This document shows, piece after piece, positions 16,053 through 37,556 of a DNA stretch of 64,000 nt. The notes below the pieces were generated by a model that saw only the letters and a program-made list of their open reading frames with translations, had not been told where the DNA came from and did no database searches. How positions within the stretch are numbered: the first letter of the stretch is position 1; every line of letters starts with the position of its first letter. Both the position numbers and the translations under genes were made by a program. The stretch lies in NCBI RefSeq assembly GCF_013978595.1, contig NZ_JACDTZ010000001.1, positions 1,240,001 through 1,304,000 of the forward strand. The letters run 5' to 3'. Origin of the DNA: Corynebacterium haematomassiliense (GTDB lineage Bacteria; Actinomycetota; Actinomycetes; Mycobacteriales; Mycobacteriaceae).

Positions 16053-16128
16053 TGGTGGAGCTAACGGGATTCGAACCCGTGACCCCCACACTGCCAGTGT
16101 GGTGCGCTACCAACTGCGCCATAGCCCC
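16053..16128 (-). tRNA. tRNA-Ala (anticodon GGC), CCA encoded
   Basis: Minus-strand cloverleaf beginning GGGGCTATGGCGCAG. The anticodon stem is CCACA/TGTGG with loop CTGGCAG, anticodon GGC. The T arm is ACGGGTTCGAATCCCGT. The 3' CCA (16053-16055) is encoded. Confidence 0.95.
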
Positions 16129-16169: not shown

Positions 16170-16242
16170 TGGAGCTAACGGGATTCGAACCCGTGACCCC
16201 CACACTGCCAGTGTGGTGCGCTACCAACTGCGCCATAGCCCC
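16170..16242 (-). tRNA. tRNA-Ala (anticodon GGC), CCA not encoded
   Basis: Identical over all 73 positions to the copy 41 bp away, but the discriminator A is followed by CTC, so CCA must be added after transcription. Confidence 0.95.
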
Positions 16243-24769: not shown

Positions 24770-25558
24770 CTAGTCCTCCATGCCAGCCATGACGCGGAGG
24801 ATGGCATCCATGTCCGGATCACGCATCTCGTCGACGATGTTGCCGTCGCGGAGGAACACCACCCGGTCGGCGTAGGAGGCGGCGCGGGCGTCATGCGTGA
24901 CGATGACCACCGTCTGCCCGTCCTTGTCCACCGCCGTACGGAGAATGTCCAGGACCTCTTTCGAGGCGTTGGAGTCCAAGTTGCCCGTGGGCTCGTCACC
25001 GAAGATCAGCTCCGGGCGGCTCACCAGCGCGCGGGCGCAGGCGACGCGCTGCTGCTGGCCTCCCGACAGCTCCGCCGGGCGGTGATCCAGCCGCTTGCTC
25101 AGGCCGAGACGGTCGGTGACCTCGTTGAACCATTGGGGGTCCACCTTGCCGCCCGCGATGTTCGTGGGCAGCGTGATGTTCTCCGCGGCCGTGAGGGTGG
25201 GGACCAAGTTGAAGGACTGGAAGATGAATCCGAGACGGTCGCGCCGCAGCGCCGTGAGCTGCTTGTCGTTGAGCTGGGACAGGTCCGTCTCGCCGATGTA
25301 CGCTTCGCCGGTGGTGGCGGAGTCCAGCCCCGCCATGACGTGCATGAGCGTGGACTTTCCCGACCCGGACGGGCCCATAATCGCCGTGAACTCATTGCGG
25401 CCGAACTCCACATTGACGCCGTCGAGCGCCCTGACCTCGGTGTCGCCCTTGCCGTACGTCTTGACCAGGCCTACCGCCCGGGCGGCCGCGGCCCTGGTTG
25501 CCGGGTCTGGTGTTGCCGGGTCTGGTGCTGCCCCAAGGATCTCGTCCTTCTCAGCCAT
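24770..25558 (-). CDS. ABC transporter ATP-binding protein, LolD/MacB type
   Basis: A 262-residue ATPase. Walker [17 protein letters not shown] (about 62-77), Q loop [10 protein letters not shown], signature [15 protein letters not shown], Walker [14 protein letters not shown] and H-loop VIVTHD. The GNLDS ending is characteristic of the MacB/LolD/FtsE group and agrees with the permease that follows. The N-terminus has a short [10 protein letters not shown] repeat. The ATG at 25558 has AGGAAGGCGG upstream. Confidence 0.93.
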
Positions 25559-25660
25559 TGAGGTCCGCCTTCCTATCCGTTCACTCTTTCGGGACTATAC
25601 GCACCCAATGGTCAAGGCCGGATTGTCAGGCACAATGAACCAGCAAGTGGGTTGCCGTGC

Positions 25661-26277
25661 CGGTTGTGCACGAATCGACAGTGGTGCCGCGTTTGCCCAG
25701 GTGGGATTTGGGTGGGCGGGGCTGTTTCGTTGAGTTGTACAATTCGTGGGTGCGGGCCAATGATGGGTGTGTGCGGGGTTGTCCACAATGCGTAAGTCCG
25801 TATTGGCGTCGGCAGCCTGGGGGTGGTCTCGTAGAAGTTGACGACGGCCGGTATCCGGCGACCGTTTCCCCAGGTCGCAAATCGGTGTTGTCAGCTTTTG
25901 CGAAACCCCATCTACCGGACGGCAGGTCCGTTGGTGTCCACCCATAGTTGGCGGCGCCGCCGTTGTCCGCAATGCGGAGGTTGGCGCCAATGATGGGTGC
26001 CGGTGTGTTGTCCGCAATGTGGTCTCCGCGGGGATGTTTCGTGGGTGTGCACCAATGATGGGTGCGGGTGTGGCTGTCCGCAATGCGTAAGTCCGCAAGC
26101 GTTAGAGGGCGACGAGGAGGCCATGCGGGGCACCGGTTGTGCACGAATCGACGGCGATGTTGCGTTTCCCCAGGTCGGTTTTGCGTCGGCGGGGGTGTTG
26201 TGTTGATTCGTACAATCCGTGGGTGCACACCAATTGTTGGTGGGGGTGGGGTTGTCCGCAATGCGGACACCCGCAAG
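25661..26277. repeat. Degenerate repeat array downstream of the rrn terminator
   Basis: The stretch 25559-26302 holds no credible gene. It contains five copies of a composite unit: CCAATGATGGG or a variant (25757, about 25941, 25987, 26052, 26230), followed after 23-24 nt by GTCCGCAATG or a variant (25781, 25965, 26010, 26076, 26254). The first and last copies sit in a longer duplication of about 140 bp (25661-25803 and 26133-26277) that also shares GGTTGTGCACGAATCGAC and GTACAATTCGTGGGTG. CACCAATGATGGGTG is an imperfect palindrome. Similar cores lie in the 23S-5S spacer (26633) and in the 16S leader (CCATCATTGG at 31871). Function unknown. Confidence 0.7.
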
Positions 26278-26302: not shown

Positions 26303-26342
26303 GAAAAGGCACCCGCCACACAAACGGTTGTGTGGCGGGTGC
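26303..26342 (-). terminator. rrn operon terminator
   Basis: A 14-bp perfect stem (GCACCCGCCACACA and its complement, 26309-26322 with 26329-26342) followed on the minus strand by CTTTTC. It lies about 20 bp after the 5S gene. Confidence 0.9.
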
Positions 26343-26360: not shown

Positions 26361-26478
26361 GGTCGGCGGTAACCTACTCTCCCACTCCCTCCCGGGGGCA
26401 GTACCATCGGCGCGGGCGGGCTTAGCTTCCGGGTTCGGAATGGGACCGGGCGTTTCCCCGCCGCCATCAACCACCGAC
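26361..26478 (-). rRNA. rrf: 5S ribosomal RNA
   Basis: About 118 nt. Minus-strand conserved core CCCATTCCGAACCCGGAAGC and GAGAGTAGGTTACCGCCGAC. Helix I is formed by GTCGGTGG and its 3' partner CCGCCGAC. The ends are estimated from this pairing. Confidence 0.9.
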
Positions 26479-26649: not shown

Positions 26650-29738
<3,089 letters not shown>

Positions 29739-30130: not shown

Positions 30131-31656
<1,526 letters not shown>

Positions 31657-35720: not shown

Positions 35721-37472
35721 TTATGCACTCAGTGCTTGTCGGTGTTCGGCGATGGTGGTGTAGCCGTCGCCGAGTGTCGACTTCAATCGTCTGTGAATGT
35801 AGAAGTCGATGTAGGTGTCAATATAGTCGCGCATTTGCTCCACCGTCATCGTTGACACCACAGGCCTGCCTTTGAGCAGTTCTTGTTTCATCGTGCCGAA
35901 GAACCCTTCGGTGCGCGCGTTGTCGCCGCTGGTGGCTTTGCGTGACAGTGACGGGATGTATCGCCACCGGGTGTCGCACCACGCATCGGCCTGGCAGTCG
36001 GGGCAATCCAGGATGTTGTGGGTGTGGTCGGTGATCAGGCTGACCCAGCGTTCACTGCGGTAGAGCCCGCCACGGTCGGAATGGATAATCGGTTGCGCAC
36101 CGTCGGGTTTTACCTCGTCGATTCGCGCGATCATCTCGGCGACCAAGTCGTGATTCGGCGACGTCGACATGGTGACCGCAATCGGCATCCCGTCGTAGAA
36201 ATCGATCGCTGCCGACAGGAACAACTTCCCGTCTGGGCAGTGGATTTCGGTGACGTCGGTGCCGATTTTCTCCCACGGGGCATCCGCGTGGAAATCGTGG
36301 GTCAGCCCCTGAGTGTCGGCGTGGTCGATGAAATACTGCGACGGTGCAACAACCGGCCGGGCCGCATCCGAATCCGCATCCCCGTCGCTGCTGTCGGGTG
36401 GGGTGATCAGCAGCAGGTTTGCCGGTTTGTGGTCGGTTTCACCGGTGTAGGAGGAGTACTTGCCCGACGCCTTCGCCGGCGGGCGGCACCCAAGCTCTTT
36501 CATGAGGGTGCGCACGATCTTTTCCGACACTGTATGCCCCATGATCTTTAACCAGGCGTGGATGCGCCGGTAGCCGTAGCTTTGCCCGGATTCGGCGGCT
36601 GCCTGCAAGATCAGCGGTTTGAGTGCAGCGTGGCGCTGTTCGCGCTGTTGCACTACCTGCGTGTGTTTGTGTCGGTGGTAGTAAAACGTCGACTGCGCAA
36701 TCCCAACGACCGCGCATGCTCGAGCGATGGAAAACTCGTGGGCGTCCGTGAGGGCAACCACCACTGCGGCTTTCGCCGCGGTGGACAGCTCACCGTCACG
36801 GACGTCGTCTTTTCCCCGCGACTCACCGTCGCGGACGTTGTCTTTTCCCCGTGGCTCACCATCGCTCATGAGCACGTGGATAATGGCGTCTTTGACCGTT
36901 TCCCGGTCGCGCATCTCAACAACGAGTTTTTTCAGCTCGTCCATGTCACTGGGTAAATCAGCGATATCGTCTATCGGCCCAGGCCCTGGCAGCCACTCGT
37001 TGACTGGCCGGGGTGGTTTCTTCGCATTGGCTGCCTCATCGACTCGCTGCTGCTGATGGTTGCGTTGGACTTTGCGGTGTTTGCTCACGCGTTCCATTGT
37101 CGCCGCATAGGCCTCGTCGAAAGTCATCGACGCTGCCGAATCGCGTTCGTCATCGTCGGGCCAAAACCGCTTCGTCCAGGTCAGTGCCGCGGTGTCGTGG
37201 ACATCGAACTCCACGGCAATGTCACGCACTGTCGCCTGCGAGGTCAATCTGCGTGCGACAACTTTTGCGATGGTCTCAGCGTCGTAGGCGCGTCGCGTAC
37301 CGTCCAAGCTCTGGCCACGACGCTTGGCCGCAACCCAGTTGCCGACCGTGGCCACCGACGGTCGGCGACCACACGCGTGTTCAGCCCAGTCGCAGACCTC
37401 ACGGGCAGACGACCCAGCCAAAAACCTCTCAACCGCACCAACGCGGATATCAGATGGAAAACCTGCGGGCAT
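35721..37472 (-). CDS. IS3-family-like transposase, single ORF, with Cys-rich insertion in the DDE domain
   Basis: A 583-residue transposase with the start taken at the ATG at 37472 (GGAAGG upstream; the frame opens 10 codons earlier with a TTG). The N-terminal part has two helix-turn-helix-like segments. The middle has DGE-RGKD-VR repeats. A further HTH is HEFSIARACAVVGIAQSTFYY, as in IS3 OrfB. The catalytic core has Asp406 (GTDVTEIH), Asp466 (IIHSDRGGLYRS) and Glu522 (NARTEGFFG). The gap Asp466-Glu522 is 55 residues instead of the 35 typical of IS3, and the extra part contains DCPDCQADAWC. OrfA and OrfB are fused in frame, with no frameshift. Confidence 0.88.
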   Translation of the reverse strand: MPAGFPSDIRVGAVERFLAGSSAREVCDWAEHACGRRPSVATVGNWVAAKRRGQSLDGTRRAYDAETIAKVVARRLTSQATVRDIAVEFDVHDTAALTWTKRFWPDDDERDSAASMTFDEAYAATMERVSKHRKVQRNHQQQRVDEAANAKKPPRPVNEWLPGPGPIDDIADLPSDMDELKKLVVEMRDRETVKDAIIHVLMSDGEPRGKDNVRDGESRGKDDVRDGELSTAAKAAVVVALTDAHEFSIARACAVVGIAQSTFYYHRHKHTQVVQQREQRHAALKPLILQAAAESGQSYGYRRIHAWLKIMGHTVSEKIVRTLMKELGCRPPAKASGKYSSYTGETDHKPANLLLITPPDSSDGDADSDAARPVVAPSQYFIDHADTQGLTHDFHADAPWEKIGTDVTEIHCPDGKLFLSAAIDFYDGMPIAVTMSTSPNHDLVAEMIARIDEVKPDGAQPIIHSDRGGLYRSERWVSLITDHTHNILDCPDCQADAWCDTRWRYIPSLSRKATSGDNARTEGFFGTMKQELLKGRPVVSTMTVEQMRDYIDTYIDFYIHRRLKSTLGDGYTTIAEHRQALSA

Positions 37473-37494
37473 CGGAATACCTTCCAGCCCCCAA

Positions 37495-37556
37495 CACTCC
37501 AACTTTTTGTCCGCGCTCCCAAACTCGGCTGGTAGCCGGTTGTAGGTAGCCGGTTT
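37495..37556. repeat. Right end of the IS: inner and outer inverted repeats
   Basis: Inner repeat (complement GCGGACAAAAAGTTGGAGTG) at 37495-37514, a 16-bp gap, and the outer repeat at 37531-37556. The symmetric 15/16-bp gaps argue that all four belong to one element. Confidence 0.8.

Follow-up and report, generated by a model that had tools for sequence, protein, structure and literature searches.

Clade-specific intergenic mosaics of two repeat modules in Corynebacterium, candidate protein sites comparable with NIMEs and BIMEs

Introduction

Intergenic mosaics of palindromic repeats have been studied best in Gram-negative bacteria, in which they are often found with a RAYT transposase or are used by a phage integrase. 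As set out in passages of PMC3898611, the NIMEs of Neisseria are intergenic arrays of 200-2700 bp in which a short palindrome, dRS3 (ATTCCC-N8-GGGAAT), occurs with longer RS elements. The REPs, in the parts of PMC2817692 considered here, are short imperfect intergenic palindromes that occur in mosaic clusters and are proposed protein-binding sites; some Pseudomonas REPs start with GTGG. For E. coli, passages of PMC6379681 report an enrichment of gyrase cleavage sites both in BIME-2 and downstream of rRNA operons; the BIME-2 gyrase signals rose, rather than fell, after transcription was stopped.

The Corynebacterium arrays described here probably work most like NIMEs and BIMEs, to judge by analogy, and the features tested do not show them to be members of either. 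As in NIMEs, so far as the passages cited describe them, the arrays are intergenic and interleave a short palindrome with longer repeat modules. Unlike NIMEs, as those passages present them, they have palindromes (P1 and P2) with a consensus that is not the dRS3 sequence, number about 30 units compared with almost 700 dRS3 per Neisseria genome, and hold two palindromes in a fixed register, with a concentration at the 3' flanks of rRNA (rrn) operons. With REPs, BIMEs and REPINs, within the same limits of the cited text, they share short imperfect palindromes in intergenic mosaics. The GTKGGTG before P1 has G as its third base, giving GTGG, in 38 of 63 units and T in 19 of 63, and the consensus of 49 units has no GTAG head. 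The units of one array point in the same direction here and do not alternate as in REP/BIME/REPIN mosaics. RAYT/REP membership is not favoured, as no Y1 transposase (Y1_Tnp, PF01797) was found in 20 searched genomes, eight of them unit-bearing (the genome studied here and seven others); five of 14 control genomes were positive.

Relative to rrn, the arrays lie at the same position as the E. coli gyrase regions of the passages cited, and their repeats are of the same kind of palindromic repeat as BIME-2; the E. coli rrn flanks, in contrast, are not described as repeat arrays in those passages of PMC6379681. No description of these repeats in Corynebacterium was found among the best-ranked literature matches, a comparison that took in parts of PMC2267715, PMC1590033 (in which C. 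diphtheriae is among the genomes) and PMC2830990.

Results

Composition of the array

The window, that is, the whole 64-kb stretch of DNA that was analysed, belongs to a genome of 2.58 Mb in four contigs (G000). Beyond the 5S rRNA gene of its rrn operon follow a 15-bp hairpin, the array and a presumed ABC-transporter gene, in this order. The features of the region are as follows.

24770..25558, minus strand: ORF on the far side of the array from 5S, which we take to be an ABC-transporter ATP-binding gene; marker for finding the orthologous intergenic region
25661..25747, plus strand: inverted-repeat element a, arms TTGTGCACGAATCGAC / GTTGAGTTGTACAA, core TTTGCCCAGGT; adjoins unit 1; model R2 match 4.6e-13, element not in the model
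25742..25800, plus strand: unit 1, P1 CCAATGATGGG at 25757-25767, P2 core TTGTCCACAATG at 25779-25790; profile match 1.2e-11, unit in the profile
25824..25908, plus strand: inverted-repeat element b, arms CTCGTAGAAGTTGAC / GTCAGCTTTTGCGA, core TTTCCCCAGGT; model R2 match 1.9e-19, element in the model
25927..25982, plus strand: unit 2, P1 CCCATAGTTGG at 25941-25951, P2 at 25963-25978; profile match 7.1e-13, unit in the profile
25979..26029, plus strand: unit 3, P1 CCAATGATGGG at 25987-25997, P2 core TTGTCCGCAATG at 26008-26019; profile match 5.8e-8, unit in the profile
26038..26097, plus strand: unit 4, P1 CCAATGATGGG at 26052-26062, P2 core CTGTCCGCAATG at 26074-26085; profile match 6.8e-13, unit in the profile
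26134..26220, plus strand: inverted-repeat element c, arms TTGTGCACGAATCGAC / GTTGATTCGTACAA, core TTTCCCCAGGT; adjoins unit 5; model R2 match 8.3e-15, element in the model
26215..26275, plus strand: unit 5, P1 CCAATTGTTGG at 26230-26240, P2 TTGTCCGCAATGCGGAC at 26252-26268; profile match 3.4e-16, unit in the profile
26309..26342, minus strand: perfect 15-bp hairpin past 5S, between the last unit and 5S, with CTTTTC then following on the minus strand
26361..26478, minus strand: 5S rRNA gene, end of the rrn operon; Rfam match
26652-29736 and 30137-31652, minus strand: 23S and 16S rRNA genes of the rrn operon; Rfam matches

As the original prediction had it, five composite units are present (25742-26275), each consisting of P1 (CCMAYNNTKGG) and then P2 (TTGTCCGCAATGCGGA). 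P1 starts at 25757, 25941, 25987, 26052 and 26230 (three copies of CCAATGATGGG, one each of CCCATAGTTGG and CCAATTGTTGG), and the P2 core at 25779, 25963, 26008, 26074 and 26252. The internal spacing was also found to be fixed, with a P1-to-GTCCGCAATG offset of 23-24 bp in the units of the window, and the distances between units to vary (184, 46, 65 and 178 bp); the start of unit 3 overlaps the end of unit 2. The exact composite pattern had two matches in the window and none in 100 shuffles. A CRISPR was rejected, given these irregular spacings and the diverged copies.

Three inverted-repeat elements of 85-87 bp, which the original prediction had not named, are interleaved with the five units. 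The diverged duplication of about 140 bp described earlier was recovered as 25660-25792 and 26133-26265 (133 bp, 80% identical), and each copy comprises one inverted-repeat element and most of one unit. This duplication arises because elements a and c directly adjoin units 1 and 5, and it exemplifies a mosaic built from two types of repeat. The end of unit 5 lies 86 bp from the 5S gene, and the intervening hairpin is probably the rrn terminator, with the CTTTTC tract expected of one.

Rfam 15 at the gathering score contains no family within the array, and at E up to 5 gave only three sub-threshold matches to microRNA models (best E 0.98). The 651-bp array was without match in the plasmid and phage collections, and a phage or plasmid origin was rejected on these grounds.

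Structure of the unit

The unit is about 60 bp long and consists of P1, with GTKGGTG ahead of it, followed by P2, after which GTCCGCAA is often present. The inner part of P2 is palindromic (TCCGCA-A-TGCGGA), and the centres of P1 and P2 are 26 bp, or about 2.5 helical turns, apart. The loci examined contain 125 distinct P2 sites. P1 was recognisable upstream of 81 of them, at a distance of 22 bp in 73 cases, 21 bp in seven and 19 bp in one. At the other 44 sites P1 was not recognisable by pattern, so P2 alone, or with an altered P1, also exists. The register between P1 and P2 is fixed, and the spacer, which shows little sequence conservation across units, is free to change.

The unit had been proposed to be a hairpin or a double binding site. 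Model R1 started from 63 units; thinning left 50, of which one, a reverse-complement reading, was omitted, so that 49 were aligned. RNAalifold on these 49 units gave three pairs with no compensatory changes. An RNA hairpin is not favoured for the unit, given this lack of covariation, yet unit 5 alone as single-stranded DNA folded somewhat above shuffles (z -2.15 and -2.20). The double site is the part of the proposal that fits better.

The 16-mer TTGTCCGCAATGCGGA was also found in 83 stretches of viral contigs. None of the 80 listed as loci had any of three P1 variants upstream (allowing up to one substitution), and the viral occurrences were therefore taken as chance.

Distribution in the genome

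Exact TTGTCCGCAATG is present in 26 copies in this genome, and with up to one mismatch it gave 45 matches, compared with five for the reversed control. The window array had 17 matches in its own genome, self included. Four rrn operons were located by a 5S search, and units were found past the 5S gene of each (5, 7, 3 and 5 units), so the motif is present beside the other rrn operons as well, and its absence there, proposed earlier as a refuting observation, was not seen. All of these units are antiparallel to rrn and, within an array, have the same direction. Over 374 bp the window array is 91% identical to the array at the 1645-kb rrn operon, which suggests that the rrn flanks may have exchanged array sequence.

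The unit profile had 34 matches, 33 of which are listed: 20 in the four rrn flanks and 13 at eight further places (at about 939.8-940.3, 962.6, 1671, 1685, 1717, 1751, 1786 and 1821 kb). The rrn association is thus upheld for all four operons but is not exclusive, as 13 of the 33 listed matches lie elsewhere and some relatives have rrn operons without units. The eight places are intergenic by ORF reading, one side of the place at about 1821 kb being masked. One copy (L054) lies between convergent genes; others are upstream, for example, of genes that we take to be rpsF, a DUF222/HNH-like gene, and divergent leuS and DUF488-like genes. The idea that units always follow a terminator T-tract was dropped in view of these copies upstream of genes. 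Upstream of one DUF222/HNH-like gene, two to three units were observed in five genomes (L051, L221, L230, L234 and L235). At 939.7-940.4 kb (L049) the palindrome CTATGCAGCTGCATAG is repeated between units, as also in C. sp. MSK008 (L090), which adds a third type of palindrome to the mosaic.

Distribution in the genus

The exact 16-mer TTGTCCGCAATGCGGA was detected in 10 of 151 Corynebacterium genomes (reversed control, 0), and the unit profile (E up to 0.01) had matches in 27 of 151. The genomes with strong matches (at least seven, best E <1e-7) were G000, G002, G016, G038, G049, G070, G078 and G122, and matches in the remaining profile-positive genomes were few or weak. The match counts include 34 in G000, 33 in G038, 25 in G049 and 23 each in G002 and G016. 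Units are dispersed between genes, and several genomes concentrate them at the 3' side of rrn.

The rrn survey consisted of one profile search of 29 rrn-flank or contig-end stretches. Three of four rrn operons have units in each of two single-contig relatives, G049 and G016, the matches in G016 being partial. Orientation to rrn is antiparallel in G000, G049 and G038 and parallel in G016. Two 5S-bearing contigs of G038 have six and four units, and units with no 5S in view are present at the starts of four further contigs, three of G038 and one of G002. The unit profile had no match at the rrn flanks of G122 (0/4), at one G049 rrn, at the one examined in G078 or in G059 (0/1), nor at the ABC-linked rrn of G009, G014, G019, G010 and G008 (0/1 each).

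The shorter sequence GTCCGCANTGCGGA is more widespread (51 of 151 genomes), with high copy numbers, both strands counted, in G059 (54), G020 (48), G021 (39) and G042 (31). An exact P2-type palindrome occurs within 1 kb past 5S at all four rrn operons of G020 and of G042, and at three of four in G059 and in G067. None was found at that distance in G096 (0/4), G118 (0/4), G121 (0/3 examined) or G141 (0/1), genomes that carry the P2-type palindrome elsewhere. In G020, GTCCGCANTGCGGA is paired with a different palindrome, GACTCTGCCGTGGCGGAGTC, in the same spacer between the ABC gene and 5S. A ~1-kb array of GACTCTGCCGTGGCGGAGTC alternating with GTCCGCATTGCGGACT was observed in this spacer in G020 (L190, 370-1300) and G021 (L193); another subclade, that of G020 and G021, fills the ABC-5S spacer with other palindromes. 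Seven sites in six unit-less genomes (G007, G008, G009, G010, G014 and, twice, G019) have about 140-410 bp between the ABC gene and 5S, a distance obtained by subtraction from approximate gene starts; it is about 750 bp in G016, about 810 bp in G000 and about 1200 bp in G020.

The inverted-repeat element

The second module is an element of about 86 bp, with complementary arms of about 17 bp flanking a TTTCCCCAGGT-like core. A core-based search gave 17 rows, mostly without the expected arms. An arm-based search of 336 kb returned 54 rows, compared with seven in one mononucleotide shuffle. Rows with fewer than nine paired positions or off the usual length, and the loci L213, L246 and L298, were dropped before alignment; six further weak or ambiguous rows were removed to leave 37, and 29 of these were hand-picked as alignment A2. 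As weakly paired rows had been dropped, alignment A2, its pair count and model R2 are selected for pairing.

A re-dealing test of arm pairing was made on all 81-84-bp rows regardless of pairing (41 rows, 39 distinct arm pairs). These arms form 12.15 Watson-Crick positions per element, compared with 10.05 when re-dealt (maximum 11.33 in 2000). In the pairing-selected alignment A2, 82.8% of arm cells are paired compared with 74.5% in shuffles, two-sided cells number 77 compared with 37.9, and the covariation score is 0.399 compared with 0.251 (sd 0.018), positive measures that can be inflated by subfamily relatedness. Two measures were not above shuffles, namely pairs with two-sided change (10 compared with 10.1) and further pair types (23 compared with 27.6). 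Pairing is at most 43.2% once the partner arm is slid. Four inverted-repeat strands of the window, tested as DNA, had fold z values of -2.45, -1.36, -1.04 and +0.12. The arms may fold, or form paired half-sites that change in concert.

Model R2 (E up to 0.01) had matches in 42 of 151 genomes, many of them single or weak and some at the same place on both strands. In G150, which has 28 matches, the 20 copies read have arms of a quite different sequence, mostly CTCAGGCAGATTYGACA / TGTCAGATCTGCCTGAG, that are nonetheless complementary, and 19 of the 20 retain TTTCCGCAGG; the element in G149 has arms of yet another sequence. The inverted-repeat element is therefore spread more widely than the unit family. 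Larger intergenic mosaics were observed in G150 (L299-L315; e.g. L301, L305 and L309), in which a GGTTGYGCACAACC-like palindrome occurs with the ~85-bp element with species-specific arms, and a TTTCTTCAT...ATGAAGAA inverted repeat is also contained. In G149 (L316, 1367208-1367595), three inverted repeats of about 100 bp, with arms like TCCTGACGATGTTGACAC / GTGTCACCATCGTCAGGA, lie within 390 bp.

Divergence at orthologous sites

Divergence was compared in orthologous stretches away from rrn, with each ortholog pair used once (20 pairs, six intergenic loci). Mismatches were 44/500 in the core (8.8%), 68/220 in the spacer (31%) and 514/2577 in the flank (20%). The inclusion of a pair needed a unit profile match in one of its genomes, which somewhat lowers the core divergence. 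The core had fewer mismatches than the flank in 17 of 20 pairs (sign test, p 0.0026), a value that overstates the case because the pairs come from six loci and are non-independent, 11 of the 20 coming from the locus upstream of the DUF222/HNH-like gene. When pooled per locus, the core was below the flank at six of six loci (0/25 and 26/130; 16/75 and 125/390; 1/25 and 24/130; 1/25 and 56/130; 23/275 and 249/1407; 3/75 and 34/390). In two of the three exceptional pairs the second genome is unit-less at that site (core mismatches 13/25 and 16/25), and both were retained in the totals. Earlier versions of the count, one with an rrn pair and one with some pairs counted twice, gave the same direction.

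P1 and P2 thus appear to diverge at a lower rate than the DNA around them, an indication that the cell may make use of the repeats. The family is not simply a decaying tandem repeat, because the register is family-wide and core divergence is below flank divergence, and the earlier proposal of a selected structure is sustained to this extent.

Presence/absence and copy-number change

At the locus beside the 'AAPILVVADIHLG' gene, G002 and G049 have a unit and an inverted-repeat element; the corresponding place in G000, G038 and G070 is a short plain site. The insert in G002 is 143 bp and is flanked by CCCACGG and CCCGCGG as 7-bp direct repeats; the plain site has a single CCCGCGG, and the insert ends in G049 have diverged. 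This arrangement fits either an insertion with a 7-bp duplication or a precise loss between the repeats. At the rpsF locus of G038, one arm and the final bases of a unit remain as a deletion remnant. At one ortholog the number of units is one in G002, one in G049, four in G000 and six in G038.

The block resembles MITEs, a class of comparison in which we include Correia elements, in being small and non-coding, in its presence/absence at one locus and in the 7-bp direct repeats in G002. Unlike MITEs, it had no terminal inverted repeats over the whole block when inspected by eye, and core differences between orthologs are small. To our knowledge the block has no autonomous partner.

Discussion

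On balance we consider it probable, by a modest measure, that these repeats are DNA sites for a candidate protein, arranged in a clade-specific intergenic mosaic of Corynebacterium that is comparable with NIMEs and BIMEs. The mosaic has two modules, the ~60-bp double-palindrome unit, in which P2 usually lies 22 bp after P1, and the ~86-bp inverted-repeat element. The unit would serve as a platform of duplex DNA, with one protein or oligomer contacting both palindromes. Cores that diverge little, a spacer free to vary and a register that is fixed argue for a protein that reads two palindromes on duplex DNA, and P1-P2 as an RNA element is disfavoured by the missing covariation. The modules may have spread through rare insertion and local tandem duplication, and recombination may have partly copied the rrn arrays among the rrn flanks. 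The benefit, at a guess, might be topological, with gyrase or a nucleoid protein binding where rrn transcription piles up positive supercoils; the rrn location and the E. coli gyrase precedent are what suggest such a role, by analogy. The P2 sites with no recognisable P1 (44 of 125), the orientation, which is not conserved, and the unit-less rrn operons count against this explanation, as do the dependence of the divergence comparison on six loci, the two covariation measures of alignment A2 at shuffle level and the folding of unit 5.

The same modules might instead be purely selfish, MITE-like elements, the unit and the inverted repeat being mobilised by some transposase or recombinase and kept where they are harmless, with no host role. 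We regard this as possible, though improbable. It would account for the presence/absence at one locus with its 7-bp direct repeats, the deletion remnant in G038, the varying copy number at one ortholog and the species-specific arms of the inverted-repeat family. The rrn 3' spacers, which lie between genes and undergo recombination among themselves, would be such harmless places. However, P1 and P2 diverge less than their flanks at shared sites, which is unexpected for dead insertions, and the terminal inverted repeats of such elements were not seen by eye in the composite block. Doubtful, and a little below the selfish account in our estimation, is the more far-reaching proposal of a new class of DNA platform, in which a fixed-register two-palindrome protein site would be combined with a ~86-bp element whose arms are rewritten by species and stay complementary around a widely shared core; subclades would have filled their rrn 3' sides independently because the palindromes are required there by the candidate protein, which might recruit a topoisomerase, form a domain boundary or be a recombinase.

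Two other readings are unlikely to a similar degree. RNA-level stem-loops, acting in rrn and other transcripts as 3' ends, anti-readthrough or processing signals, would agree with arms that pair better than re-dealt ones, with the three positive measures in alignment A2, with the location just past the rrn hairpin and with the folding of unit 5, which is as a hairpin would predict. They are at odds with a unit that has no compensatory changes and that differs between species in its orientation to rrn, as well as with the mixed folding of the four window strands, the two of five covariation measures at shuffle level and an Rfam search that gave sub-threshold microRNA models only. Operators of one regulon, in which the rrn arrays would titrate the single transcription factor, would be in keeping with the copies upstream of rpsF and the other genes, as these are named here, and with the small core differences. 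Against them, one copy is found between two convergent genes, and the rrn arrays are located past the 3' end with 3 to 7 units at each operon, an arrangement that would be atypical of operators. A DnaA-box cluster or DnaA titration locus is highly improbable: unit 1 does contain TTGTCCACA, which we take to be an actinobacterial DnaA box, but when compared with TTWTNCACA-type 9-mers the critical position is A in 3 of 63 units and G in 60 of 63, and the palindromic half TGCGGA is unexplained.

The system is a mosaic in a Gram-positive genus, with no RAYT found in 20 genomes, with orthologous sites shared between genomes and with a concentration at rrn in several species. A 60-bp unit with a spacing that can be mutated provides a handle on what bounds the most highly transcribed operons at their 3' side, and inverted-repeat arms that change together make the question of the recognising partner directly testable.

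Two minor observations were made elsewhere in the window. On the minus strand, two tRNA matches of equal score (16056-16128 and 16170-16242), with starts 114 bp apart, are apparently a tandem tRNA duplication. An ORF of 593 aa at 35721-37502, also on the minus strand, has motifs from which we presume it to be an IS3-type transposase.
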